This document shows positions 4,758-30,516 of a stretch of 32,377 nucleotides of DNA, piece by piece. Source of the stretch: Bdellovibrio sp. CG22_combo_CG10-13_8_21_14_all_39_27 (GTDB lineage Bacteria > Bdellovibrionota > Bacteriovoracia > Bacteriovoracales > Bacteriovoracaceae); the NCBI GenBank assembly GCA_002786715.1, contig PCTW01000016.1, positions 122,949 through 155,325 of the forward strand, given 5' to 3'. Both the position numbers and the translations under genes were made by a program. Below the pieces are notes generated by a model. It saw only the letters and a list, made by a program, of their open reading frames with translations. It ran no database searches and was not told the origin of the DNA. Position 1 is the stretch's first letter; the number at the start of each line of letters is the position of its first letter.

Positions 4758-5300
4758 TTAGAGTTTTTCTTTGCGAATACCAAATTTGTAGAGCGCAACA
4801 TTTGTTGCGGTATGAACAAATGCGCCTATGGTGACTCCTAAAAGAATTAACGGAGCATCAGGAGTTACAAAGAAATAGTAAAAAAGTGATACACCTAGTC
4901 CACTGTCAATGTGGTCTAGAACAAAGAATAATTTTTTATTTTTTTCACTGGTTTTACCAGGTTCAACTCCCAATCTTCTTTTAATAAAAGAATTAGGAAG
5001 TTCAAATAAGACATAGGAAAAACCGAGCCCGAGACCAAAAAGAACCCAGTGCTCATAAATTCCAATTCGTTGTACCTGTGAGATCAGGTTGTCTAAAAGT
5101 GCGACAGGGAAAATACCTAATAAAGTCCCTAAAGGCATAATAATAAATCCTCTCCATGTCTTATTCTTGCCAAAAGTCCACTTGTGAATTGGAATTTTTA
5201 AAAAGGAAAGCCAATCTTTTTTTACCGCAATCATGTGAATGATTCCACCAATCATGAGTGGGAAACTTAAGAGATAGGCTTTCCAAAAAGTTAATAGCAT
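4758..5300 (-). CDS. CDP-archaeol synthase (CarS, DUF46)-family membrane protein
   Basis: This is a 180-residue integral membrane protein of the CarS family. In archaea these enzymes use CTP to activate unsaturated archaetidic acid to CDP-archaeol, and the bacterial members have no settled substrate. Diagnostic stretches are FGKNKTWRGF (43-52), LPNSFIKRRLGVEPG (101-115) and the LDHIDSGLG segment with D129 and D132. About five hydrophobic helices surround them. The length equals that of archaeal CarS (about 160-180). The ATG overlaps the methyltransferase stop by one base (TAATG), so it is the last gene of a coupled three-gene operon with a fatty-acid desaturase. A role in activating a lipid phosphate is likely. 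An archaeal-type ether lipid is not demonstrated. Confidence 0.8.
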   Translation of the reverse strand: MLLTFWKAYLLSFPLMIGGIIHMIAVKKDWLSFLKIPIHKWTFGKNKTWRGFIIMPLGTLLGIFPVALLDNLISQVQRIGIYEHWVLFGLGLGFSYVLFELPNSFIKRRLGVEPGKTSEKNKKLFFVLDHIDSGLGVSLFYYFFVTPDAPLILLGVTIGAFVHTATNVALYKFGIRKEKL

Positions 5301-6292
5301 TAAGTTGTCTTCTTTTTAAGGATGACTGTTTGCATGGATAGATTTAACCAGCGATGGAGCATATCTAACGGCCAAAAGAGTGCCGTAAAAATGGCATATC
5401 CCCAAAAATGGTTTTCAAGAATAATTCCTCTTCCTTTGTTAAATAAAAAGAGAAAACCAAAATAAAGATAAAAAAGTGGTGGAAAGGCTCCCCAAGGAAG
5501 GTATTCAACAATCTCAAAACCACTGTCTTGAACCATATTTAAAAAATGTTTTTTATCAAAAATGGTTAAATGTTGAGGAGCTTGCACTCCTGGCCAACGT
5601 TTTCCTTGGAGCGGGTAAGTGAGACAGTCAAGTCGAGGTACTTCAATGACAAGATGTCCATCATCTTTAAGGAGTTCTCTTGCCGTTGCTAATGATTTTT
5701 TTGGTTGGTAGCAATGTTCGAGAAAGTGCCACATCGTTATAACATCGAACTTTTGACCTTTAAAATCTTGATCATAAAAAAAACCTAGATAACTATTGAT
5801 TGGAGCGGCTTCAGGATAGTTTGAGAGATCTTTAAAGTCGACGCCCGATACCTTTGTTCCATACTTATGATGCATATGAAGAAGGTAAGTTCCAATCGCA
5901 CATCCAACATCTAGAATGTGTGAATTTGAATCTATCTTTTTATGACGAGTCACGATTTTATCTTTCATTTTATCGTGTTGTGCAATTCCGCGTTTAAATC
6001 CCCAGTCTCTTAGCTTACCTTTGCTTCTTCTATCATGGGCAATGTAATCATCATCGTAAAAGATTTTTATATTATCGCTGTGTACTCTTGGGTTCAGGTA
6101 AACAAATTGGCAATTGTTACAAGTGACGTAACGGAAATTGCCAGTTTTTCCTGTGAGGTCATCTTGTCCAACAAGCAAGGGAGTAAAGTCATCAGTTCCA
6201 CATTGATAGCAAGGAACATATTCAAACTTAAGATCGCTGGGATTATCAAGCTGTTTAAAATTGTCCAATGATTCTTTACTTTGAGATTGCAT
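5300..6292 (-). CDS. Zinc-ribbon SAM-dependent methyltransferase with hydrophobic C-terminus
   Basis: This is a 330-residue class I methyltransferase. A putative zinc ribbon is formed by C28-x2-C31 and C58-x2-C61, followed by FVYLNPRV, an arrangement common in Methyltransf_23-type enzymes. The SAM loop is ILDVGCAIGTYL (about 127-138), and the post-I acidic residue is in VSGVDF. A WHFLEHC motif and KDDGHLVIEVP complete the Rossmann core. Residues of about 270-315 are rich in F, Y, L and W and look membrane-associated, which fits a lipid-linked substrate. It is flanked on both sides by TAATG one-base overlaps, with desaturase upstream and CarS-like protein downstream. The methyl acceptor cannot be read from the sequence. 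Given the neighbours it is probably an acyl chain, lipid head or isoprenoid. Confidence 0.85.
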   Translation of the reverse strand: MQSQSKESLDNFKQLDNPSDLKFEYVPCYQCGTDDFTPLLVGQDDLTGKTGNFRYVTCNNCQFVYLNPRVHSDNIKIFYDDDYIAHDRRSKGKLRDWGFKRGIAQHDKMKDKIVTRHKKIDSNSHILDVGCAIGTYLLHMHHKYGTKVSGVDFKDLSNYPEAAPINSYLGFFYDQDFKGQKFDVITMWHFLEHCYQPKKSLATARELLKDDGHLVIEVPRLDCLTYPLQGKRWPGVQAPQHLTIFDKKHFLNMVQDSGFEIVEYLPWGAFPPLFYLYFGFLFLFNKGRGIILENHFWGYAIFTALFWPLDMLHRWLNLSMQTVILKKKTT

Positions 6293-7254
6293 TATATTTT
6301 TTCTCCGGTTTGTGTACTGTCTTTGAATAAGAGCTCAAGGGCATCCATTTGTTTCACCTTGAGGGCCCAAGGAAGAATGTCGTAGGTTTGGGGAAAGTTA
6401 AAATCATACTGAGGAAAATAATAGGCAGGTAGTGAAGGAAAACAATGATGAAGTTCGTGGCGATTAAAATAAAAGAGAACATAGGCTTCGAGCCAATGAG
6501 GACAACGAAGTGAACGCGTGTACTGGACTTGTTCATAATTCGTATGAGGTTTAAATTTACCATGACTTATTGGCATTGGAATATGATTGTGTTGAGAAAG
6601 CAAAACGATATCCATAAAGGCCAAAGATAAATACAGGCCTAGTCCAAAAGTTAGCAGGAGAGCTGCTCCGAAATAATAAAAAATGAAGCCATAAAAAACG
6701 ATGAGGAAAATGATATTAAGTACAATTCTTTTCCTGAAGTAAGGGTCTTCTATTGTTTGAAAAACGGCCTTGATATTCCAGTAGGTTCCTGCTCGATACA
6801 TAATGGAAAATAGTGGAATCCATAATCTCCAGCACCAGCGATTAAGAAACTTTTGAAAAATATTGAGATTGTGAACTCTCGGATCGACTTGTATTTTTGT
6901 CGTTGGATCTTCATTCTTCCAACCTGCAAGTCGGTGATGTTGTCGGTGAATGGCTTGCCAGCTATAAAAAGGCAGAATGGCGAAAAGGGAAGAGAGATGC
7001 CCAAAAAAAACATTGAGTTTCGTGTCTGGGAGTAACGTATTATGACCGCATTCATGAAGAATGACAAAGTGTTGCACAAAAGCTGTGGCCAAAAGAATTT
7101 GACCGATAAAATAAAATCCGTCTGAACGAAGTGTTAAGTAAAGACCAGAGAATGTGGTGAGGTAAGTAATAATGAGCCAACGAAATCCTAAGCTTTCGCT
7201 AGCGGTAAAGCTTTCAATTCGCTCTCTGGCATTTTGATATTCTTGCCGATTCAT
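6292..7254 (-). CDS. Membrane fatty-acid desaturase/hydroxylase family protein
   Basis: This 320-residue membrane di-iron enzyme has the three histidine boxes HECGH (67-71), HRQHH (103-107) and HELHH (266-270). An extra QHNH lies near 221-224. Hydrophobic helix pairs are placed as expected for FA_desaturase proteins, which introduce double bonds or hydroxyls into acyl chains or carotenoid-like lipids in the inner membrane. It is the first gene of the operon desaturase - methyltransferase - CarS-like, and the next gene starts in its stop codon (TAATG). It is transcribed divergently from the secreted protein at 7322, with 67 bases between. The regioselectivity and the acyl-CoA, acyl-ACP or lipid substrate are not predictable here. 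Confidence 0.9.
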   Translation of the reverse strand: MNRQEYQNARERIESFTASESLGFRWLIITYLTTFSGLYLTLRSDGFYFIGQILLATAFVQHFVILHECGHNTLLPDTKLNVFFGHLSSLFAILPFYSWQAIHRQHHRLAGWKNEDPTTKIQVDPRVHNLNIFQKFLNRWCWRLWIPLFSIMYRAGTYWNIKAVFQTIEDPYFRKRIVLNIIFLIVFYGFIFYYFGAALLLTFGLGLYLSLAFMDIVLLSQHNHIPMPISHGKFKPHTNYEQVQYTRSLRCPHWLEAYVLFYFNRHELHHCFPSLPAYYFPQYDFNFPQTYDILPWALKVKQMDALELLFKDSTQTGEKI

Positions 7255-7321: not shown

Positions 7322-8698
7322 GTGCTGATTCGTCTGATATTATTTTTTTGCCTCTCAAATCATCTTCTCGCATCCTCCGTTGATCCTATGCTTGAACCTC
7401 TGAATCAAGAACTGGTGTCCATTGATGATCCACTGAAATATAACGATTTTTTCAATCGTGTTCAGAAATTGTCACTCGAAAACCCAGAGCATGAAGGCTT
7501 ACTGCTTTATTCAAGTGTCGCTCGATTATTACAGAGTATTGAGGGGATTACGTGGCTTGAGGAAGGTTTTTATCGCCAATCTGACTTCCTGTACTCAATT
7601 TTTGTCTCGTTTATGAGGTCGACTTATTCACCAGATTACGTGATTGGAACCCATGTTCGAAAGTATGGACGATATTTTACAGAGCCTCATATGAAAATGG
7701 GCCAGTTTGCGAATCTTTCTGATTTGCAAGATCACTTGATCAAAGTCATCATGCCAGCACTTGATCATTTGATCAGTGTTCTGGATCGTCTTTCACGCAA
7801 AGAAAAAATTGAACTTGTACTTGATCAGCATGTTTTGGTCGGATTCGTCGCTAAAGAGAGAACAACTAACAAAGAAGATTGGTTTTTTATTCCTGAAGAT
7901 GAGCGCTTTAGAATATTGAGGGCTCCTCATTTTGCTTTGATGAAATCTCAAATGGAGCTTTTAGCTGGAGTTGTTAGTTATTTTAGTGCTTACAATTTAG
8001 ACCTCTTTCCCAAATATATCGATTATCTAATTCAGACTGTAACATGGCGATCTTTAAAGAAGATTCTTCTCTTTAGAAAATATGTTGAACCATTAACTAC
8101 CCAAGATAAAGTTGAAGCGCTAAAAAAAGATAAATTTAAAAATTTTCTTACTTTAACAAAACCTTTAATGACTTTAAAGGCGCTTGAGTATTGGCGCAAC
8201 TCCACTCTCTCTCGTAGATTAGCGCTTGAAAAATTTCAGAAGATGAACAGGTCGAGTTCTCAAGATCTTTGGGATGTTGATGAGTTTAAGTGGCGTGCCA
8301 AAACTGAACTGCCCATGCTTCGTTTAAGAGAGGAATTTTTAAATGCTGCCGTTCATGGGGAAGATTATAAAATAACTGTTCCAGCGACTCGCTATACATT
8401 TAAATTGCGACCAAAGCAGCTATTTATGATCACAGATTATAAATCCCTGTTGGCAAAAACGTTTTATGGGGAAGCTCAAAGAAAAACCTGGGAAATCGAT
8501 CATAAGGTCGCTCCTCATCCCCTTTATGGAGAGTTTACTGTGTGGGACTTTAATTACGGAAAACCTGTGACCTATCTAGACCCCACATTTAATTTCTTTT
8601 TACCTGAGGCCAATGATGAGAATTATTTAGAGCTTATTAAGAGCTTAAGACTTTATCCGGCCATTGCACCTTTTGTTAACCTTCTGCCTCTACATTAA
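7322..8698 (+). CDS. Secreted/periplasmic protein of unknown function
   Basis: This is a 458-residue protein starting at GTG with a good ribosome site (AGGGGAAAATT). The N-terminus MLIRLILFFCLSNHLLASS is a signal peptide. The mature chain is mostly alpha-helical in character, rich in charged residues and leucine, with no low-complexity tract. Its C-terminal third has many aromatic and Pro-containing turns (for example APHPLYGEFTVWDFNYGKP). I recognise no domain or catalytic motif. Its last 9 bases overlap the end of the convergent UbiA-like gene. The gene sits exactly between the two lipid-type minus-strand operons, so a role in the same process is possible but unsupported. Confidence 0.8.
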   Translation: MLIRLILFFCLSNHLLASSVDPMLEPLNQELVSIDDPLKYNDFFNRVQKLSLENPEHEGLLLYSSVARLLQSIEGITWLEEGFYRQSDFLYSIFVSFMRSTYSPDYVIGTHVRKYGRYFTEPHMKMGQFANLSDLQDHLIKVIMPALDHLISVLDRLSRKEKIELVLDQHVLVGFVAKERTTNKEDWFFIPEDERFRILRAPHFALMKSQMELLAGVVSYFSAYNLDLFPKYIDYLIQTVTWRSLKKILLFRKYVEPLTTQDKVEALKKDKFKNFLTLTKPLMTLKALEYWRNSTLSRRLALEKFQKMNRSSSQDLWDVDEFKWRAKTELPMLRLREEFLNAAVHGEDYKITVPATRYTFKLRPKQLFMITDYKSLLAKTFYGEAQRKTWEIDHKVAPHPLYGEFTVWDFNYGKPVTYLDPTFNFFLPEANDENYLELIKSLRLYPAIAPFVNLLPLH

Positions 8699-9364
8699 AT
8701 GAATGGCCAGCGAAACAGCTACGAGATAGATGAAAGAAGTGTATTTTTTAAAAGGCGTAGCTATGATGAATACACAAGCGATGGCCACAACAAAGGCCAT
8801 CAGTTCTAATTTCAACATCGCCAGTAAACCTAGTAATCCTAAAAGCACAGAAGAAAATTGAGCAAATACCGGGTAGTGTAAATTCTTATCATCATAGAGA
8901 TCAAAAACAAGCATCGCTAGATAAATCATCAAGCCCGGCAGCAAGGCACCGGTCCCATGAACGATCATTAAAAAAACGGGGTACTTAATAAGACCAACTA
9001 GAGATCGTAAAAGTCTCTTATCATGGGGAAGGAACCGCATAATGAGCAACCAAAGGGCAGTAAAGAGAGCTAGAACGAGTATTTGTTGTAAAGACATTGT
9101 GAAGAAAAAAACTGAAATCCAACAAAAGATAAGAGCTACGAAAGAAGTGAAATTTCTAGTTTGAGTCAGTATTCTTTCTGGATGATGAATCCTGTCCCAC
9201 TTCAAATCGCATAAGTCGTCAAACAATCTAAAAAGATAAATCAAGCAAAAGAGAGTAAGATGCTGTTGGTAACTTGATAGTGGATGAGTGAGCGCAACCA
9301 CTGCTACTAGTGCCAAAATTTTATTTCCATAACGTTGTGAAAAGTATTTAAGCAGATCAGTCAT
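8690..9364 (-). CDS. UbiA-superfamily membrane prenyltransferase
   Basis: This 224-residue polytopic membrane protein is shorter than the usual 280-300. The first aspartate-rich motif is LFDDLCDLKWDRIHHPER (about 48-64, D49/D50/D53/D57), equivalent to the NDxxDxxxDxxxxPxR of UbiA enzymes. The second is VFDLYDD (153-159). These bind the Mg-diphosphate of a prenyl donor. About seven hydrophobic helices are visible. I chose the ATG at 9364 because it forms an 8-base ATGACTGA overlap with the dikinase stop. An in-frame ATG nine codons upstream would give an atypical polar leader. As the last gene of the P450 - dikinase operon, it probably attaches or moves a prenyl or related group. The acceptor is unknown. 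Related families include DGGGP synthase and quinone prenyltransferases. Confidence 0.82.
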   Translation of the reverse strand: MTDLLKYFSQRYGNKILALVAVVALTHPLSSYQQHLTLFCLIYLFRLFDDLCDLKWDRIHHPERILTQTRNFTSFVALIFCWISVFFFTMSLQQILVLALFTALWLLIMRFLPHDKRLLRSLVGLIKYPVFLMIVHGTGALLPGLMIYLAMLVFDLYDDKNLHYPVFAQFSSVLLGLLGLLAMLKLELMAFVVAIACVFIIATPFKKYTSFIYLVAVSLAIHLM

Positions 9365-12020
9365 GCAGTTCGACCACTCCCGTATCTCCATGAACAGTTA
9401 TCTCTTGTCCATCTGTGATAAGCTGGCACGCGCCTTGGACTCCAACAATCGCAGGAATACCAAATTCACGGGCCACAATGGCGCCGTGACTTAACATTCC
9501 TCCGCGTTCAATGACTAAAGCTGAAATCAGAGGAAAGACTGGCGCCCATCCAGGATCTGTTTGCTTAGTAATGAGAATATCGCCAGGTTGAAGTTTTTTT
9601 GCTTCCAATGCCGAATTTAAAATTCTTGCGCGACCCCTTTTGGTTCCTCCGCAGGCAGGTAGACCTTTTAAGTTTTGTTCAGAGTCAAATTGGTCCGATG
9701 CTTTTAATTTAAAAGCACAATTTGGGGTAAAACTCTGTCCTTCAGGTAGTAAAAAGGAATCTGGTGGATTATAGGTTGAGACTTTTTTAAATTGATCTCG
9801 ACGTAGTGTGATCAGATCTCGCAGTCCTTCTTGAAACATTGAAGCACCCGTTAAAAGTTCCGAGACTTCGCGATAGGTAAGGTAAAAAATATCTTGATCC
9901 TGGGTAAAGAGTCCTTCCTCTTTGTAGAACTTATTTAATTCCAAGAGTGTCTTACGAAAGGTTCCATAGAGCATCGTTTGTTTTAAGCGAACTCTTTCTC
10001 GATAGCGAATTCCTTGTGCGGTTGCTGCAACTAAAAATTGAAAGATAACGACTTTAAATGGCCATAGAATAAGATCCCATGGCTTTTTAAATAGAGTAAA
10101 GCTCACTTTCCAGATAAGTAGCCGACGTTCTACCGACTTATGAGCAATTTGTTTTTTGGGTGATTCAATTTCTATTTGCAAATAACCTTGGAGTATTTCA
10201 ATGAAGCCTTCTGGCCTTTCTTGAAAATTAGGTTCAGTAAGCATCAGCTCTCCTGAACAGCGATGGCCCCAATGGATCAGGAACTGATTAAAATTTTGAT
10301 AAAAATCACTAAAGCTTTTGTTGTGAGATATTTCATGCCAAATAGCGTCTGGCTCCTTTTTAAAAAGATCTCTGAGCTCATTAGATGATTTTATTTGTTG
10401 TGATAATTCCCAAATCTTTTGTGGGGGGATCGAGCTCACCACATTTGGTATTCCTTGGAGTAAGGTATTTTTGAGTTCGTCAGAATTTTTAAAGTAGCGC
10501 TTTAAAAAAGAGCCTAAGAGACCATAGCTCATCATGGCCGTGGTATCGGCCAGCGAAGCTTTTTTCCAGCTAAGAAAGCGAATGAATAAGAATTGATGAA
10601 AGAGCTCTTTAAAGTGTTGCCAACGTTCATCGATGGTAGGAAATTTGCGAGAGCTTTCGAGGTGTTCATCAATTTCTCTCTCGAGAGATGCAACTTTTGT
10701 AGGAATAGATAGAATGGTTAATAGTGACACTGTTTTGATGCGCCACAATTCATAAAGTTGGATCAAGAATGAGCGTTTTTCCGATTTATCTATGACTGAA
10801 GTTTCAGTGTCCTTCGGATCACCTACAAAATTATTAAAATAACTGGAGAGTTTATTGCCAAAAGGAAGAGCATGGAGACAAGTATGAATGGATGTCATGT
10901 TGTAATACATACGCGCACCGTGACAGCCGATAATATTTTTTAATTCCCATTCATATTTAAGAAGTCGATTTTCGCGCAGACCGACACTTTTACCCATATC
11001 TCTAAAATAATGATAAAACGATTGAAGTGCGATTGAATAAAGCATTGGAGTTATGGGACGTGGATAGTTCTCATTTACATTTACATTTGACCAGTAAATC
11101 CATTTTTGCTGAGGTTGTGCGGTTGTTGTAATGGGACGAGATTGAACCAAATACAATCGATCTTGAGAATCTACCGCCCACTCAATGTCACATGGGCCCA
11201 TTTGAGATTCCAATTTTAAGGCCAATTTTTTTAATTCATTGATCCACATTTCCTGGCCACTCAGTCCTATTACTTGATCTTTGTATTCAGGTTGCTCTGG
11301 GTCATGGAGAAGAATTGCTGTTGAAGTGTGACGAGGTATTTTAAATGCTCCTGGATTAATTTCTCCAGCAACTAGGCGCTCTGCATGGCCATAACAATAT
11401 TCGACCATCATTTCATCTTTGTTCTGATTCAATGGATTGAGTGTAAATAAGACGCCAGCATATTGCGGACGGATCATATATTGAACTACGACACCCATAC
11501 CCTTAAGAGAAATACTTTTTGATTTTTGATAAAAGAGAACGCGATCTGACCAATATGAAGCCCAGCATTTTTTAAGTGAATCAATCAATTCTTCGTCTGT
11601 GCCTTCAGTTTGATAACTTTCCAACTGTCCTGCAAATGATGATTCTACGCCATCTTCTCCGCAAGCACTTGAACGAACCATGTAGGGTCCCTCCGGAAGT
11701 CGTGCTCTTTGAAAAAGGAGGTCTTCTACGATTGGGGTAGGCACGTGGCCGGAAGTGATAAGTTCTTCAATTTGGAGAGAGGTTTCTTTCAACGATTCGG
11801 GATCGAGGTGATTAGAGATAGCTACTAATTCAGTGATTTTTTCTTTCAAATGATTGTGATCAAGGAAGTAGTCAAAAGCCTTTTTTGTGACAACAACTCC
11901 TGGAGGAATTGGTAATCTGTCTGCAATCATTTGGGAGAGATTAAAAGCTTTCTCGCCACATTCGGTAACATCGATTTCATCCGATAATCTGTGTATCCAT
12001 AAACTATTTGGTTTTTTCAT
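9357..12020 (-). CDS. PEP-synthase/rifampin-phosphotransferase-like ATP dikinase
   Basis: This 887-residue protein has an N-terminal ATP-grasp domain of the PPDK/PEP-synthase type. Visible motifs are GEKAFNLSQM (22-31), VRSSACGED (115-123), ESSFAGQLESY, GVLFTLNP (189-196) and CDIEWAVD followed by VQSRPIT (277-298). A middle region of about 450 residues does not resemble the PEP/pyruvate TIM barrel. The C-terminal swivelling domain carries the phospho-histidine motif GGMLSHG with H845. The order ATP-grasp, substrate domain, His domain, and a catalytic His about 42 residues from the end, match rifampin phosphotransferase (about 865 aa) rather than PEP synthase. Such enzymes convert ATP to AMP plus Pi and put the beta-phosphate on a small molecule. 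Here the gene is coupled to a P450 (ATGA overlap) and to a UbiA protein, so the acceptor is more likely a lipid or isoprenoid alcohol or metabolite. That acceptor is inference. Confidence 0.88.
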   Translation of the reverse strand: MKKPNSLWIHRLSDEIDVTECGEKAFNLSQMIADRLPIPPGVVVTKKAFDYFLDHNHLKEKITELVAISNHLDPESLKETSLQIEELITSGHVPTPIVEDLLFQRARLPEGPYMVRSSACGEDGVESSFAGQLESYQTEGTDEELIDSLKKCWASYWSDRVLFYQKSKSISLKGMGVVVQYMIRPQYAGVLFTLNPLNQNKDEMMVEYCYGHAERLVAGEINPGAFKIPRHTSTAILLHDPEQPEYKDQVIGLSGQEMWINELKKLALKLESQMGPCDIEWAVDSQDRLYLVQSRPITTTAQPQQKWIYWSNVNVNENYPRPITPMLYSIALQSFYHYFRDMGKSVGLRENRLLKYEWELKNIIGCHGARMYYNMTSIHTCLHALPFGNKLSSYFNNFVGDPKDTETSVIDKSEKRSFLIQLYELWRIKTVSLLTILSIPTKVASLEREIDEHLESSRKFPTIDERWQHFKELFHQFLFIRFLSWKKASLADTTAMMSYGLLGSFLKRYFKNSDELKNTLLQGIPNVVSSIPPQKIWELSQQIKSSNELRDLFKKEPDAIWHEISHNKSFSDFYQNFNQFLIHWGHRCSGELMLTEPNFQERPEGFIEILQGYLQIEIESPKKQIAHKSVERRLLIWKVSFTLFKKPWDLILWPFKVVIFQFLVAATAQGIRYRERVRLKQTMLYGTFRKTLLELNKFYKEEGLFTQDQDIFYLTYREVSELLTGASMFQEGLRDLITLRRDQFKKVSTYNPPDSFLLPEGQSFTPNCAFKLKASDQFDSEQNLKGLPACGGTKRGRARILNSALEAKKLQPGDILITKQTDPGWAPVFPLISALVIERGGMLSHGAIVAREFGIPAIVGVQGACQLITDGQEITVHGDTGVVELHD

Positions 12021-13363
12021 GTCAATTTCCTACGGGTCAAAATCAAGGGGACGCCACCTTCAGGTCTTAAACTCACTTGAAATGCAGGTTGAACCGTGTG
12101 TCCTTGAGGTAGTTCAATCTTAAAATGTTGAATTAGAGTTGGGATAATAATCATCATTTCCATTCTTGCGAGCATCTCTCCTGTGCAGGCCCGTGGTCCT
12201 GAGCCGAATGGGATATAGGCCATGGGATGAGCAGGGCGATCGCGATCAGGATTAAATACTTCTGGATCAATCCAGTGTTTTGGGTCGTGATGAATCAGAT
12301 AAGGCGAAATGATAAACACATCGCCTTTTTCAATCGGATGACCAAGAAGATCAGTATCATTTTCACAAATGCGTCCGAGACTCCAACTAGGAGGATAGAG
12401 TCTCATGCTTTCATTAAAGACTTTAGTAAGCTCAGGCATTAAATCCATACTTTCAAGACTAGGAGCTTTAGTGCCGAGAACATTTTTAATTTCATTTTCA
12501 ACAATTGCTAACCATTCTGGATTCTTGGCCAGTAGATAAAGCGTCCAAGATAAAACGGAAGAGGTTGTTTCATGACCGGCAAAGACCATGGTTTTAACTT
12601 GATCGCGCAAGAATACTTCATCCACTTCATAGGGTGCTTGCATAAAAGCATGAACCATATTGTGTTCAGGATCATTTGGGGCGCGCTTTGCTCTTGCAAT
12701 TAAATCATCAATGAGAAAATCGAGAGTTTCAATTGACTGATAGAACTGTTTAAAGATTTTCTTTTTCTTTGGTCCTGGAAAGGCCAGAGCATTGGCCATG
12801 CGCTCGTTTGTTATTTCAACCAGACGAGACAGCTCTCTTTCAACAGTGTCTATCATATGACCAAGATCTTCATTGAAAACTGTTCAGCCCAAAACAGAGA
12901 GAGCGACTTGAGTCATATAGTGGGAGAGTAGCATCGGCTGGTTGGGCTTGAGTTCACGTGAGAGTTGTTCCACTAAATTTTGCGAACATTCTTGAATGAT
13001 CTGATTCCAATGGCCGTGATGGGCCTTGCTAAAAAAGGGTTGAACAACTTTTCGAATCTTCAACCATTGATCACCGTTTTCTGTAAAGACGCCATTGCCT
13101 GTGACTTCAGCAACCAAACGAAAACCTGGAGTATTCTTGGAATAATTACGCGCATCTTTTTTTAAGATGAGTTCAACGGCGTCGAGGTCGGTTAATTGAT
13201 ATGTTCGATTTGATCCCAATTGAAGCTGAACAAAGTCACCATAAGTTTCTTTCATGCGAATCATAAAGGGGTAACGACCTTTGGCGAATTGCCTAAGATG
13301 CCCGGTTAAAAAACCAGTCCATTTATCTTTTGGTGGCACCACAGGCTTCAAAGCTTGAGGCAT
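12017..13363 (-). pseudogene. Cytochrome P450 interrupted by one in-frame TGA
   Basis: This is a complete P450 monooxygenase reading frame of 448 codons, broken only by a TGA at 12886-12884 (codon 160) after ALSVLG. The same frame continues with TVFNEDLGHMIDTVE. The first half has the C-helix WLKIR (W100, R104). The second half has the I-helix AGHETTSS (about 262-269), ExxR as ESMRLYPP (E318, R321), FNPDRD, and the heme loop PFGSGPRACTG with the cysteine ligand at about 393. No other disruption is seen. A good ribosome site (AAGGAC) precedes the ATG at 13363. The final TGA overlaps the dikinase ATG. It may be a recent pseudogene, a sequencing error (CGA or CAA-like codon to TGA), a readthrough gene, or two polypeptides. 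The second half alone would lack the N-terminal fold. Confidence 0.85.
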
Positions 13364-22182: not shown

Positions 22183-23193
22183 ATGAAATTGAAGTTAGCA
22201 GTAGGGATCGTTTTAGTTGCGCAATTGAGTGCACCATTAATGGCCAAAGAGAAAGTAGTCTATGGTGATGACAATAGAGTAAATGCCAATGAATCAACTA
22301 ATGACCTTTTTAAGACATTAGCAAAATCAACGGCCGCAATGATTCCCGTAAGTGCTGTTGAGAAATCAATGGAGGGTATTCTTTCCAAAATTTCAGGTAA
22401 AACATTAAAAGAATCAAATCGTCTCTGTGATGGAGAGAGATTTGAAGCTCAGCAAACAGCGGCGATGTGTTCTGGCTTTCTCGTAGGTCCAGATCTTTTA
22501 GTTACCGCCGGTCACTGTATGCGTGGTGGTCCTGACCTCGCTGATGCAACTGAGTCAAAAAATTTAAATTGCTTAAATAATTACTGGGTGTTTGATTATA
22601 GACAAGATCTGATTGGAGATAATCCAGGTGAAGTTTATGTTAATTCAAAGAGCGTTTATAAGTGTGCCAAAGTGATCAGCCAGGTTCTTGATCAATCAAC
22701 TAAAAATGACTTTGCTCTAATTAAGCTTGAAAGAGTCGTTGAAGATCGTGATCCTTTGAAATTCAGAACTGAAGGTAAAATTGAAGACGCGACTGAAATC
22801 GTTGTGATTGGCCACCCATCTGGATTGCCAACAATTATTTCTGATGGTGCACAAGTAAGAACAAATACTAATCCTTATTTCTTCGTAGCAAACCTCGATA
22901 CTTTTGGTGGAAACTCTGGATCAGCTGTTTTTGATTCAGAAACAGGTCTTGTTGAAGGAATCCTCGTTCGTGGTGAAAATGATTACAAATATAATCCAGA
23001 AAGAGGATGTACAGAGGTTTTTACGTGTGAAAATGATAAGTGTCGCGGAGAAGATGTTACACGTATTACAATGATTCCTGAGCTCGCTCCAGGTCAACAA
23101 CCAGTAGCTCCGGTAGTTGTAACTCCAGTTACTCCGTCTGTTCTTGATTTTCCTTTTTTCATGGGTTCAATTAATTTCGAGGATCTTGAGTAA
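22183..23193 (+). CDS. Secreted trypsin-fold serine protease, copy 1
   Basis: This 336-residue S1/Glu-C-like protease has a signal peptide (cleavage after LMA near 21). The mature start is KEKVVYGDDNR. The catalytic triad is H111 (VTAGHC), D176 (NDFALIKL) and S245 (FGGNSGSAV). Several cysteines (C82, C96, C112, C130, C161, plus a C-terminal Cys cluster before RGEDVTRIT) suggest disulfides. The C-terminus has an extra 35-residue Pro/Val-rich tail not present in the paralogue at 25078. A strong ribosome site (GAGGGGGAA) precedes the ATG. It is probably exported to digest external protein. The segment before the catalytic core may be a propeptide. Confidence 0.92.
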   Translation: MKLKLAVGIVLVAQLSAPLMAKEKVVYGDDNRVNANESTNDLFKTLAKSTAAMIPVSAVEKSMEGILSKISGKTLKESNRLCDGERFEAQQTAAMCSGFLVGPDLLVTAGHCMRGGPDLADATESKNLNCLNNYWVFDYRQDLIGDNPGEVYVNSKSVYKCAKVISQVLDQSTKNDFALIKLERVVEDRDPLKFRTEGKIEDATEIVVIGHPSGLPTIISDGAQVRTNTNPYFFVANLDTFGGNSGSAVFDSETGLVEGILVRGENDYKYNPERGCTEVFTCENDKCRGEDVTRITMIPELAPGQQPVAPVVVTPVTPSVLDFPFFMGSINFEDLE

Positions 23194-25077: not shown

Positions 25078-25941
25078 ATGAAAGCATTTATAATTCTGAC
25101 TGTTTCTTTGGTAATGAATACCTCGTTCGCCATGGATAAAGTAATTTACGGAGATGATAATCGTCGCGATATCTATGATACGACGAATTCACTCTATCTC
25201 GAATTGGCCCAATCAACTGCGGCCATGATTGCGCACTCAAAACTGACTGACAAAGGCACTATTACTGAAATCTCAGGAAACACTCTTGAATCTCGTGGAA
25301 TGTGTTCAACAATTCGCTTCTCTCAACAAATCACAGCAGCTAACTGCTCTGGCTTCCTCGTAGGTCCAGATCTTTTAGTTACCGCTGGTCACTGTATTCA
25401 ATCAATGAGCGACTGTGAAGGTTCTGCTTGGGTTTTCGGTTTCGCCGTTAATAACGACGGAGAGAAGGCAACTGAAGTAGCTTCTAAAGACGTTTATAAG
25501 TGTGTTGAAATTCTCGAGCGCAAACTTGATCGTCCAACACAAGATGACTTTGCTCTCATTCGTCTCGATCGCGTTGCTGCTGATCGCACGCCATTAACAT
25601 TTCGCAAGACTGGTAAAATTGCTGATACACAATCAATCGTTGTTATCGGTCACCCAACTGGTCTTCCAACAAAAGTTTCTGACGGCGCCAACGTACGTAA
25701 AAACACAAACGATTATTTCTTTGTGGCCAATCTTGATACTTTTGGTGGCAACTCTGGTTCTGCAGTATTTAACGCTGAGACAGGTGAAGTTGAAGGAATC
25801 TTGGTTCGTGGTGAGAACGACTATGTTTGGAGTGACGAGAATGGATCACGTTGTCGTGTACCTCAACAATGTACAAACGATGCTTGTCGCGGAGAAGACG
25901 TCACAAGAATCACGAATATTAAAACGCTTATGAATATGTAA
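25078..25941 (+). CDS. Secreted trypsin-fold serine protease, copy 2
   Basis: This 287-residue paralogue of the gene at 22183 has a signal peptide ending near SFA (18), then MDKVIYGDDNR. The triad is H105 (VTAGHC), D157 (DDFALIRL) and S226 (FGGNSGSAV). The same Cys pattern and terminal CRGEDVTRIT are present. It lacks the Pro/Val-rich tail of copy 1 and ends soon after that motif. A ribosome site (AAAGGGAG) lies upstream. A 50-base stretch around the catalytic His is almost identical at DNA level to copy 1, suggesting recent duplication or gene conversion. Confidence 0.92.
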   Translation: MKAFIILTVSLVMNTSFAMDKVIYGDDNRRDIYDTTNSLYLELAQSTAAMIAHSKLTDKGTITEISGNTLESRGMCSTIRFSQQITAANCSGFLVGPDLLVTAGHCIQSMSDCEGSAWVFGFAVNNDGEKATEVASKDVYKCVEILERKLDRPTQDDFALIRLDRVAADRTPLTFRKTGKIADTQSIVVIGHPTGLPTKVSDGANVRKNTNDYFFVANLDTFGGNSGSAVFNAETGEVEGILVRGENDYVWSDENGSRCRVPQQCTNDACRGEDVTRITNIKTLMNM

Positions 25942-26137: not shown

Positions 26138-26157
26138 CAGACTCATGGACGAGTCTG
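26138..26157 (+). promoter_or_regulatory. Leader hairpin just before the subtilase ribosome site
   Basis: cagactc (26138-26144) and gagtctg (26151-26157) form a perfect 7-bp stem with a six-base loop, followed shortly by the GAGGAG ribosome site. A GATAAT hexamer lies about 20 bases upstream. The hairpin could affect mRNA stability or initiation. Its role is unproven. Confidence 0.4.
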
Positions 26158-26174
26158 GTGGTGAGGAGTCAAGG

Positions 26175-27650
26175 ATGACTTGTACCAAAAAAGGCGCCTT
26201 TTTTTTCTTGTGCCTATCTGCCATTTTCAGTTTCAATGTCGAGGCCAAACGCTATATTGTTCGTTATAAAAATAATGAAAGTGGCGGTCGCGTTTCTGCA
26301 TTAAGCAAGCGTGCTCAGCGTTCTATCGTTCATCTTACAAAAAAATCTGAAGTCGATGCTATAAAAAAACAAAGTGATGTGGCCTATATCGAAGAGGATA
26401 TTTATCTTCACGCCAATTATGAGCCAGGTGATAGCAACGGAACTGTTGATCCTCGATATGATGAACAATGGCATTATGGAAATGTAAATGGCCTTAACCT
26501 GCCTCTCGCTTGGGATCTCTCTACAGGCTTAACTTCTCAAGTTGTGGCCGTTGTCGATACGGGTTTTACCGATCACTCTGAACTCTCTGGTCGAATTGCT
26601 TCAAGTGCCGATATGATTGATGATGCAACTTTAGGTCGCGATGGAAATGGGCGAGATAATGATGGCCATGATCCAGGCGATTACAATACTGGTTTTGAAT
26701 CTTGCAGTGGTGGCTCTATGAAAAATAGTAGCTGGCACGGAACCCACGTTCTTGGAACAATTGGGGCCAATGCCGAAAATGGAGTAGGCGTTGTTGGTGT
26801 TAATTGGAAAGCAAAGCTAGTGGCCGTCAGAGTGTTGGGACCTTGTGGAGGCTGGCTTTCAGATATCGCCGATGGTATTCGCTGGGCAGCTGGAGGAACT
26901 GTTGCTGGTGTCTCAAACAATCCTTATCCTGCAAAAGTTATTAATCTCTCGCTCGGTGGCCCTGGTGCTTGTTCAAACACACTTCAAGAGGCCATTGATT
27001 ATGCTCGCTCTCAAAAGTCTGTCGTTGTTGTAGCGGCCGGAAACGATGGCAATAATATGGATTATTATCCTTATCAACCTTCAACTTGTCGTGGGGTCAT
27101 AACCGTTGGCGCCACTGATTCAGGTGGAGTGAAGGCCTATTATAGTAATTATGGGAAAGCTGTTGATGTTTGGGCCCCAGGGGGAACAAGTTTTCAAGGT
27201 GTGCTTTCCCTTGGAAATTCTGGTTCACAAGGACCGATGACTGAAATTTATAAAACAATGGCCGGTACAAGTATGGCCTCTCCTCATGTTTCTGGAGTTG
27301 CTTCTTTAATTCTTGCGGTTAATCCCGATCTCTATCCTAATCAAGTCGAAGGGGCTCTTCGTGAATCGAGTCTTGCCAATGGAGTACTCGATGCAAGAGA
27401 TGCTATAGATATCGCCATGAGCATGACTCCCGATCCTAATTATACGGTTCCTGAATTTAGTACGGGAACAACTCCAGTTTCAACTGCGCCAACTCCCATC
27501 TTTACTTCTGATGATAATGGCGGTGCTTGCGGTTCAGTGATTGATGTTTCTGGTGGTTCTTCAGGCGGTGGGCCTGGTCAATTCATGGTGACTTTGGCGA
27601 TCGGCCTTATGTTAATTGTGATACCTAAAAAATCTTTTAAAAAGAATTAG
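26175..27650 (+). CDS. Secreted subtilisin-family (S8) protease with C-terminal anchor-like tail
   Basis: This 491-residue protease has a signal peptide (to about VEA, 24) and an I9-type propeptide (about 25-78, KRYIVRYKN to VAYIEED). The S8 domain has D128 (VAVVDTG), H188 (SSWHGTHVLG), oxyanion N290 (AAGNDG) and S366 (MAGTSMASPHVSG). The tail has a linker rich in Thr and Pro, then ACGSVIDVSGGSSGGG, a hydrophobic helix (about 470-483) and basic KKSFKKN. This resembles tripartite C-terminal sorting signals. I chose ATG 26175 because GGAG lies 6 bases upstream and the signal peptide begins there. An in-frame ATG ten codons earlier would add a charged leader. The gene is likely exported for external proteolysis. 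Confidence 0.92.
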   Translation: MTCTKKGAFFFLCLSAIFSFNVEAKRYIVRYKNNESGGRVSALSKRAQRSIVHLTKKSEVDAIKKQSDVAYIEEDIYLHANYEPGDSNGTVDPRYDEQWHYGNVNGLNLPLAWDLSTGLTSQVVAVVDTGFTDHSELSGRIASSADMIDDATLGRDGNGRDNDGHDPGDYNTGFESCSGGSMKNSSWHGTHVLGTIGANAENGVGVVGVNWKAKLVAVRVLGPCGGWLSDIADGIRWAAGGTVAGVSNNPYPAKVINLSLGGPGACSNTLQEAIDYARSQKSVVVVAAGNDGNNMDYYPYQPSTCRGVITVGATDSGGVKAYYSNYGKAVDVWAPGGTSFQGVLSLGNSGSQGPMTEIYKTMAGTSMASPHVSGVASLILAVNPDLYPNQVEGALRESSLANGVLDARDAIDIAMSMTPDPNYTVPEFSTGTTPVSTAPTPIFTSDDNGGACGSVIDVSGGSSGGGPGQFMVTLAIGLMLIVIPKKSFKKN

Positions 27651-29044: not shown

Positions 29045-29172
29045 TGTGCCTTTTTTTTTATGACAGGAAAAGTCAGTAGACTGAAACCTATTGTAGATAA
29101 AAAATGATATGTACTAAAAATTTTATATTAATACTCAAGGATGAGTCTCTTATTTTGTTTCAAGGAGGAATT

Positions 29173-30516
29173 ATGAAAAAAGTTCTATTGGCCGCAACAC
29201 TTGCTGTGATTGCATCGGCCCAAGCTGCAACAGTGGCAATTATCGATTCTGGCACTGATATGCAACACAAGGAAATTGTTCCTCACGCATGGATCAACCC
29301 AATCGAAATTCCAGGTAATGATCGCGATGAAGATCATAATGGTTATCAAGATGATATTTACGGTTGGAACTTTGCCGAAGGCAATAATCAAGTTATCGAT
29401 TATAGCTATCTTGGTTTACTAACGGAAGACATCAGAAAGTTTTTTGAAATTCAAACAAAGTATTTCTACGGAACTGCCACGGCAGAAGAAATTCAGTGGA
29501 TGCGTGATCAAGTAAAAGATCAGTCATTCATCAAGCGCATCAGTGCTTATGGAAACTTCATGCACGGTACTCACGTAACAGGCATCGCCATTAAGAATAC
29601 AACTTCAAAAGCTTTGGCGATTAAGTTGATTCCTACTGAAGTGAAGCTTCCTGGACAAAGCCTCTATGAAGGTAAGGGCAATGGTCTCAAACTTAAAATC
29701 TTAAAAGGTTTAATGACAACATTGGCGAAGCAACAAATCGTCATGATGTCTGAAATTGGTGCCTATGTTAATTTTCATAAGGCCGATATCGCCAACGGAT
29801 CTTTCGGAACAGGTTTTGGTCAAGCTAAAATGATTGTTCAAACAATTGCCAAAGTTGTGATGAAAGACATTACACCTGAGCAAGTTGAGGATATGGCCCG
29901 CGTCTTTATGAATACTCTTTTGCTAGAGGGACAAAAATTTGTAAATGCCGCTCCTAAGACTCTTTTTGTTTTTGCCGCAGGTAATGATGGTTCGAACAAT
30001 GATCTCTATCCCACTTTTCCAACCAACCTCGATGCTCCAAACGTCATCAGTGTGGCTGCGACGATGGAAGATATGACAATTGCCCCATTTTCAAATTATG
30101 GAATTAAAGAAGTTGATATTGCAGCTCCAGGCGTAGGGATTTTATCAAGCGCTCCTGGGAATAATTATCTCACTGTGTCAGGAACCAGTCAGGCAGCACC
30201 TTTTGTTGCCAACATTGCTGCTAGAGTTAAAGAGGCCAATCCTGGTTTGACTCCGGCACAAGTGAAGCAAATTCTCCTAAATACAGTGGATAAACGCGAT
30301 TTCTTGGTCGGTAAAGTAACTTCAGAAGGTATGGTTAACGCTGAGCGCGCTATTCGTGCGGGAGAGTTATCTAATGACCTAAGTTTGGAAATGTCAGTTG
30401 ATATTTCCCGTCAAGAAATTGTAGACTCAGGAAGTTATATTACGTTTGGACCTAAGTCTGTTGCCTCAAAAGGGTTTGTATTGCCGCTGCCTAGCAACTT
30501 CGTTATTACACAGTAA
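29173..30516 (+). CDS. Subtilisin-family (S8) protease without a propeptide
   Basis: This 447-residue secreted protease has a signal peptide (about 1-18, ending SAQA), and the catalytic Asp already appears at D25 (AIIDSGTD). There is no room for an I9 propeptide. H131 is in NFMHGTHVTG, N271 in AAGNDG and S339 in SGTSQAAPFV. The D-to-H gap is about 106 residues against about 32 in subtilisin. The insertion is charged (YFYGTATAEEIQWMRD) and probably helical, and a second large insertion follows the His. I chose ATG 29173 because of the AAGGAGG site. An ATG 23 codons upstream lacks one. The gene ends before a good terminator. It is active-looking, with a non-classical insertion-rich form. Confidence 0.9.
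   Translation: MKKVLLAATLAVIASAQAATVAIIDSGTDMQHKEIVPHAWINPIEIPGNDRDEDHNGYQDDIYGWNFAEGNNQVIDYSYLGLLTEDIRKFFEIQTKYFYGTATAEEIQWMRDQVKDQSFIKRISAYGNFMHGTHVTGIAIKNTTSKALAIKLIPTEVKLPGQSLYEGKGNGLKLKILKGLMTTLAKQQIVMMSEIGAYVNFHKADIANGSFGTGFGQAKMIVQTIAKVVMKDITPEQVEDMARVFMNTLLLEGQKFVNAAPKTLFVFAAGNDGSNNDLYPTFPTNLDAPNVISVAATMEDMTIAPFSNYGIKEVDIAAPGVGILSSAPGNNYLTVSGTSQAAPFVANIAARVKEANPGLTPAQVKQILLNTVDKRDFLVGKVTSEGMVNAERAIRAGELSNDLSLEMSVDISRQEIVDSGSYITFGPKSVASKGFVLPLPSNFVITQ

Follow-up and report, generated by a model that had tools for sequence, protein, structure and literature searches.

The window, by which we mean the whole stretch of 32,377 nucleotides that was analysed, carries two groups of overlapping minus-strand genes with one plus-strand gene between them (Table 1). 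The first group is the trio of desaturase, zinc-ribbon methyltransferase, and CarS-like open reading frames that a sequence-only reading had singled out, and its coordinates, TAATG overlaps, and Pfam assignments have all been confirmed. The overlaps, at 6292 (desaturase/methyltransferase) and 5300 (methyltransferase/CarS-like), are of one base each and suggest translational coupling; the "stoichiometric" coexpression that had been read into them goes beyond this evidence.

Table 1. Genes of the two lipid operons and the gene between them, by position in the window
Feature	Position	Strand	Size and basis
CarS-like protein, proposed CDP-lipid synthase	4758-5300	minus	180 aa; PF01864
Zinc-ribbon class I SAM methyltransferase, hydrophobic C-terminal part	5300-6292	minus	330 aa; PF13489
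Membrane fatty-acid desaturase-family protein	6292-7254	minus	320 aa; PF00487
Protein without family match, with a signal-like start; lies between the operons	7322-8698	plus	458 aa
Small UbiA-fold membrane protein (UbiA2)	8690-9391	minus	profile match, predicted fold, first Asp-rich motif
PEP-synthase/rifampicin-phosphotransferase-type dikinase	9357-12020	minus	887 aa; PF01326, PF00391
Cytochrome P450, in-frame TGA at 12884-12886	12017-13363	minus	both halves match PF00067

The desaturase matches FA_desaturase (PF00487) with 87.7 bits against a cut-off of 29.7, and the His boxes HECGH, HRQHH, and HELHH can be read off its translation. The methyltransferase scores 85.3 bits (cut-off 27) with Methyltransf_23 (PF13489), opens with a CxxC...CxxC ribbon in the translation, and is 50% identical to its counterpart in a Crocinitomicaceae operon (Bacteroidota, L154) of the layout described below as Type I. 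The closest relatives of the desaturase are also desaturases from Type I operons.

In the second coupled operon (8690-13363), the P450 and dikinase genes overlap by ATGA, and UbiA2 probably starts at 9364, giving an 8-base overlap with the dikinase stop. The P450 frame is continuous through one stop, and this in-frame TGA reflects a gene that recently became a pseudogene or else an error in the sequence. The plus-strand protein between the operons has no relative in the CarS loci examined.

The dikinase contains PPDK_N (PF01326, 199 bits) and PEP-utilizers (PF00391, 87 bits) and no other Pfam domain; a PEP/pyruvate-binding barrel was not detected by Pfam. Its order of domains, ATP-binding at the N-terminus and phosphohistidine at the C-terminus (SHGAIVARE motif at residue 844) with another region between, is that of rifampicin phosphotransferase (RPH) and the prodigiosin ligase PigC, although its score of 310 is well under the RPH cut-off of 999. 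Annotation as a PEP synthase was considered and rejected, as the barrel was not found and the scores lie under the PEP synthase cut-offs. The nearest dikinases are those of Type I operons.

UbiA2 matches no Pfam family at E≤0.001, UbiA included, and at about 224 aa it is shorter than the UbiA prenyltransferases. However, its profile meets clear UbiA proteins (group E) at E 1.4e-6, and its predicted model, of moderate quality (pLDDT 77), resembles UbiA (4od4, Z 10.6) and the archaeal DGGGP synthase (6m31, Z 9.8), scores that helical bundles can reach by chance. The first Asp-rich motif is shared with these enzymes and kept (R55, D58, D59, D66), whereas the second is not clearly retained.

Some further genes of the region can be recorded here. 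About 4-8 kb beyond the window end, on the same contig, a second dikinase-UbiA pair lies beside an AMP-binding protein (L181:5710-9354); genes nearby code for a protein that resembles DAG kinase, for a DUF3419 protein, and for a reductase domain akin to the Type II aminotransferase fusion (see below). Within the window, two trypsin-like secreted proteins (22183-23193 and 25078-25941) are 54% identical and, with two unrelated genes between them, represent a local duplication, and two subtilisin-like proteases (26145-27650 and 29104-30516) lie near each other.

Family, fold, and motif of the CarS-like protein

The assignment to the CarS family is real, and rests on Pfam, the predicted fold, and a conserved CTP-transferase motif. 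The protein matches PF01864 with 48 bits against a cut-off of 22 (47.5 bits in the genome search), and the CarS of Aeropyrum pernix (5guf) is its sole sequence match in the PDB. A predicted model (pLDDT 93, from an alignment of 52 sequences) likewise finds 5guf as its best structural match, with a Foldseek probability of 1.00 and a TM of 0.73 by target; VIA-align gives Z 13.9 and 2.4 A over 143 residues, the next chain reaching Z 6.3. Among 36 CarS-like sequences of the phylum, collected by profile, no substitution occurs at S104, K107, R108, or D129, and a single sequence lacks D132. A second set (A5) was retrieved via patterns covering FGxNKT and ELPNS, so that invariance of the motif there is partly by construction.

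The likeness to archaeal CarS thus extends to the Pfam family, the transmembrane fold, and the motif S..KR......D..D. The two differ in that identity is 17-21% in structural alignments and the window protein has EL(PN) where the archaeal motif has GD. Moreover, the archaeal equivalog NF003114 is matched with 58 bits, far under its cut-off of 148. Geranylgeranylglyceryl-phosphate (GGGP) synthase was sought as PcrB/GGGPS in this genome and 59 relatives, CarS-bearing ones included, and none scored over the cut-off, while control archaea were positive. Given the equivalog score, the lack of this enzyme, and the presence of a separate standard CdsA (160 bits) in the genome, the CarS-like protein is not an archaeal CarS orthologue.

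In a tree of the family, the branch that parts the single archaeal CarS row from the bacterial sequences is 7.48 changes per site long, and as this outgroup is one partial sequence, the tree can neither date nor root the split. Operon types cluster in the tree. The window protein has no supported position in it; its nearest sequences are Type II members of its own family. The suggested link to archaeal CDP-archaeol chemistry is not supported, in view of the missing GGGP synthase, the low equivalog score, and this long branch.

Bacterial CDP-diacylglycerol synthase, CdsA, belongs to the same superfamily and has the overall reaction proposed here for the CarS-like protein, according to two papers (PMC9385802, PMC7018664). 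Unlike CdsA itself, the window protein has no match to the CdsA profile (PF01148) at E≤0.001.

A recurring cassette and its partners

The window trio and the P450/dikinase/UbiA2 operon together make up a set that is met again, as a single operon, in Bacteroidota and in further Bdellovibrionota. The functional unit is larger than had been supposed, since the second coupled operon belongs to the same set. The CarS-like gene occurs in 45 of 369 genomes of the phylum (21 of 182 genera), in two main layouts. Type I runs [HMGR-kinase fusion] - CarS - dikinase - UbiA2 - methyltransferase - PlsC-like - thioesterase - desaturase, and Type II runs CarS - UbiA - dikinase - P450 - GNAT, plus an aminotransferase/reductase fusion and genes for transport; in some loci of the phylum a phosphatidylserine (PS) decarboxylase is added. 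The window holds Type I parts in two pieces, lacking the HMGR-kinase, PlsC-like, and thioesterase genes, and Type I proteins, those of Bacteroidota included, are the closest relatives of its dikinase, methyltransferase, and desaturase.

Beyond the phylum, a single-sequence scan of named genomes found no CarS relatives and an alignment-based scan found at least 546, among them genes of Photorhabdus, Marinobacter, Hahellaceae, Moraxellaceae, Polaribacter, Kordia, Spirochaetes, Gemmatimonadetes, and Lachnospiraceae. Loci from at least six phyla are represented (Bdellovibrionota, Pseudomonadota, Bacteroidota, Spirochaetota, Gemmatimonadota, and Bacillota); the gammaproteobacterial operon reads UbiA - HMGR-kinase - dikinase - GNAT - AMP-binding ligase - CDP-alcohol phosphotransferase - CarS. 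Some CarS-like genes are partnerless (for example L010, L013, and L047), and in one relative (L014:7990-8442) the match is lost after about 110 residues. Carriage on plasmids gave no tblastn match. No description of the cluster was found by keyword in papers that name CDP-archaeol synthase (PMC9385802, PMC7852524, PMC11868695, PMC7018664) or in work on Caulobacter sphingolipids and on lipocones, a search whose coverage mostly excludes subscription journals.

Of 95 distinct loci, 72 have a dikinase within six genes of CarS, 51 a UbiA protein, 50 a GNAT acyltransferase, 46 an HMGR-kinase, and 33 a CDP-alcohol phosphotransferase. These first four, the dikinase being RPH-like, are the widespread partners; one cassette sub-type has the desaturase and methyltransferase as accessories. 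The per-gene rate for the dikinase is 0.088 at one to five genes from CarS and 0.007 at seven or more, a distance at which partner rates in general drop to zero or near zero. It should be borne in mind that the loci from outside the phylum (up to 80) were retrieved by sequence patterns, and that the neighbourhood profiles were built from phylum loci and the open reading frames called mechanically, so that some partners may have been missed and some starts may be wrong. The cassette UbiA (at least 180 bits) occurs in 31 of the 369 phylum genomes and 30 of these are CarS-positive, though CarS is found in only 45; the Fisher p of 9e-32 for this co-occurrence is uncorrected for genome relatedness, and as locus counts are not independent, related genomes inflate such statistics.

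Gene fusion is the most telling evidence for association. CarS shares one reading frame with a CDP-alcohol phosphotransferase in 8 of the 95 loci and with an AMP-binding ligase in 2, both partners being fused in L151. In addition, a CDP-alcohol phosphotransferase lies at or near CarS in all 29 pseudomonadotal loci sampled, and PS decarboxylase neighbours CarS in 9 loci. The sequence-only reading is partly supported: it rightly saw a CarS-family protein of unsettled bacterial function in a lipid-modification operon, and the lipid role is strengthened by the conserved UbiA, CDP-alcohol phosphotransferase, PS decarboxylase, and acyltransferase neighbours together with these fusions.

In the HMGR-kinase of related operons, an HMG-CoA reductase is joined to an APH-type kinase (L109:1164-3728 and relatives, from gammaproteobacteria), and the catalytic residues of the reductase are kept. 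Several gammaproteobacterial genomes carry the fusion as their sole reductase of this kind or as one of a pair, and no mevalonate-diphosphate decarboxylase scored over the cut-off in the gammaproteobacterial genomes searched that carry it; two flavobacterial genomes possess that decarboxylase along with a second, separate reductase. The fusion therefore probably works towards the product of the cluster itself and not towards the supply of isoprenoids. Our genome has, by family search, one HMGR only, a canonical protein of 459 aa with no room for a fused kinase. A protein query for the fusion also found nothing there, a result that is weak alone because the same query missed the canonical HMGR.

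Of the GNAT partner, this genome has only a distant relative (151 bits to the CarS-operon GNAT), which adjoins a serine-palmitoyltransferase-like gene. The serine-palmitoyltransferase-like, GNAT, and epimerase-like genes stand in a row (L180:8261-11606, contig C79) and resemble the Caulobacter ceramide genes.

A proposed pathway and its alternatives

We consider it probable, though well short of certain, that the CarS-like protein acts in bacteria as a CDP-lipid synthase and belongs to an uncharacterised pathway for a non-canonical phospholipid. The analysis has shown which genes are present and how they are coupled, the fold and catalytic motif of CarS, the conserved neighbourhood with its fusions, a separate CdsA, and no GGGP synthase in the genomes searched. 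In the scheme that we infer, reactions, order of steps, and substrate alike, the UbiA-fold protein and acyltransferases would assemble the lipid, the UbiA-fold protein joining its chains, and the RPH-like dikinase probably phosphorylates a lipid alcohol or an intermediate. CarS, as a CTP:lipid-phosphate cytidylyltransferase, would then add CMP to this phosphorylated lipid, one other than ordinary phosphatidic acid. A CDP-alcohol phosphotransferase would attach the polar head, with PS decarboxylase in some lineages, and tailoring of the chains or the head would fall, in the window, to the desaturase, methyltransferase, and P450.

That the product is a CDP-lipid is indicated by the CarS fusions with CDP-alcohol phosphotransferase and by the PS decarboxylase neighbours. 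No CDP-alcohol phosphotransferase adjoins CarS in the window or in Bacteroidota Type I operons, so in this genome other PF01066 proteins would have to serve. In Caulobacter, the ceramide kinase CC_1160 and the CDP-DAG-synthase-like CC_1161 serve phosphosphingolipids (PMC11324152), a precedent for such a pair of proteins working on a non-canonical lipid. CC_1160 is of a different kinase family from the cassette dikinase, and the parallel drawn with CC_1161 is one of role.

The CTP-transferase superfamily also includes CTP-dependent phytol and dolichol kinases. There is accordingly an outside chance that the CarS-like protein phosphorylates a lipid alcohol, that the dikinase adds a second phosphate, and that the UbiA-fold protein uses the diphosphate as alkyl donor; UbiA proteins do use prenyl-diphosphate donors and are conserved partners alongside the dikinase. 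The fusions and PS decarboxylase neighbours nevertheless indicate a CDP-lipid, and the closest solved structure is a cytidylyltransferase. Bacteria can have more than one CDP-DAG synthase, and the shared superfamily and overall reaction would allow a second ordinary enzyme acting on phosphatidic acid and merely co-regulated with the desaturase and methyltransferase genes. We give this only a small chance of being right: the protein lacks a CdsA-family match, it is present in a minority of the phylum's genomes, and its conserved partners differ from those of the standard pathway. A housekeeping CdsA role is disfavoured by the standard CdsA already encoded.

An archaeal-type ether lipid pathway, making CDP-archaeol or a close relative with UbiA as digeranylgeranylglyceryl-phosphate synthase, might be suspected from the best structural matches of the CarS and UbiA2 models and from the HMG-CoA-reductase fusion in many related operons. 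It is extremely improbable: UbiA is a broad superfamily, the equivalog score is low, and the fused reductase occurs without a mevalonate-diphosphate decarboxylase over cut-off in the gammaproteobacterial genomes searched. With no GGGP synthase over the cut-off in this genome or the 59 relatives searched, we reject archaeal lipid synthesis. The stop in the P450 means that the locus may be partly decayed, and the split of the operon by an opposite-strand gene and the absence of three Type I genes would also suit a remnant whose function has been lost in this lineage, leaving the open trio unused as a pathway. This is very unlikely, as, apart from the P450, all five genes keep an open, full-length frame and intact motifs, and overlaps persist at four junctions.

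Returning to the CDP-lipid synthase, a wider proposal is possible if doubtful: that across six phyla the pathway repeats the late archaeal logic of UbiA-type transfer, CarS-type CDP activation, and CDP-alcohol transfer with non-archaeal blocks, a dedicated HMGR-kinase or aminotransferase/reductase fusion supplying the variable unit, and so makes a new class of membrane phospholipid.

CarS-type and UbiA-type genes found together are normally taken as a sign of archaeal-type lipids. A conserved bacterial cassette of CarS, UbiA, and CDP-alcohol phosphotransferase without GGGP synthase means that such pairs cannot serve this purpose, and hundreds of these genes probably bear misleading annotation names ("CDP-archaeol synthase", "PEP synthase"). 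The cassette is a pointer to a phospholipid, so far undescribed, in genera that can be cultivated, Marinobacter, Polaribacter, and Photorhabdus among them, and its product would be within reach of ordinary lipidomics.
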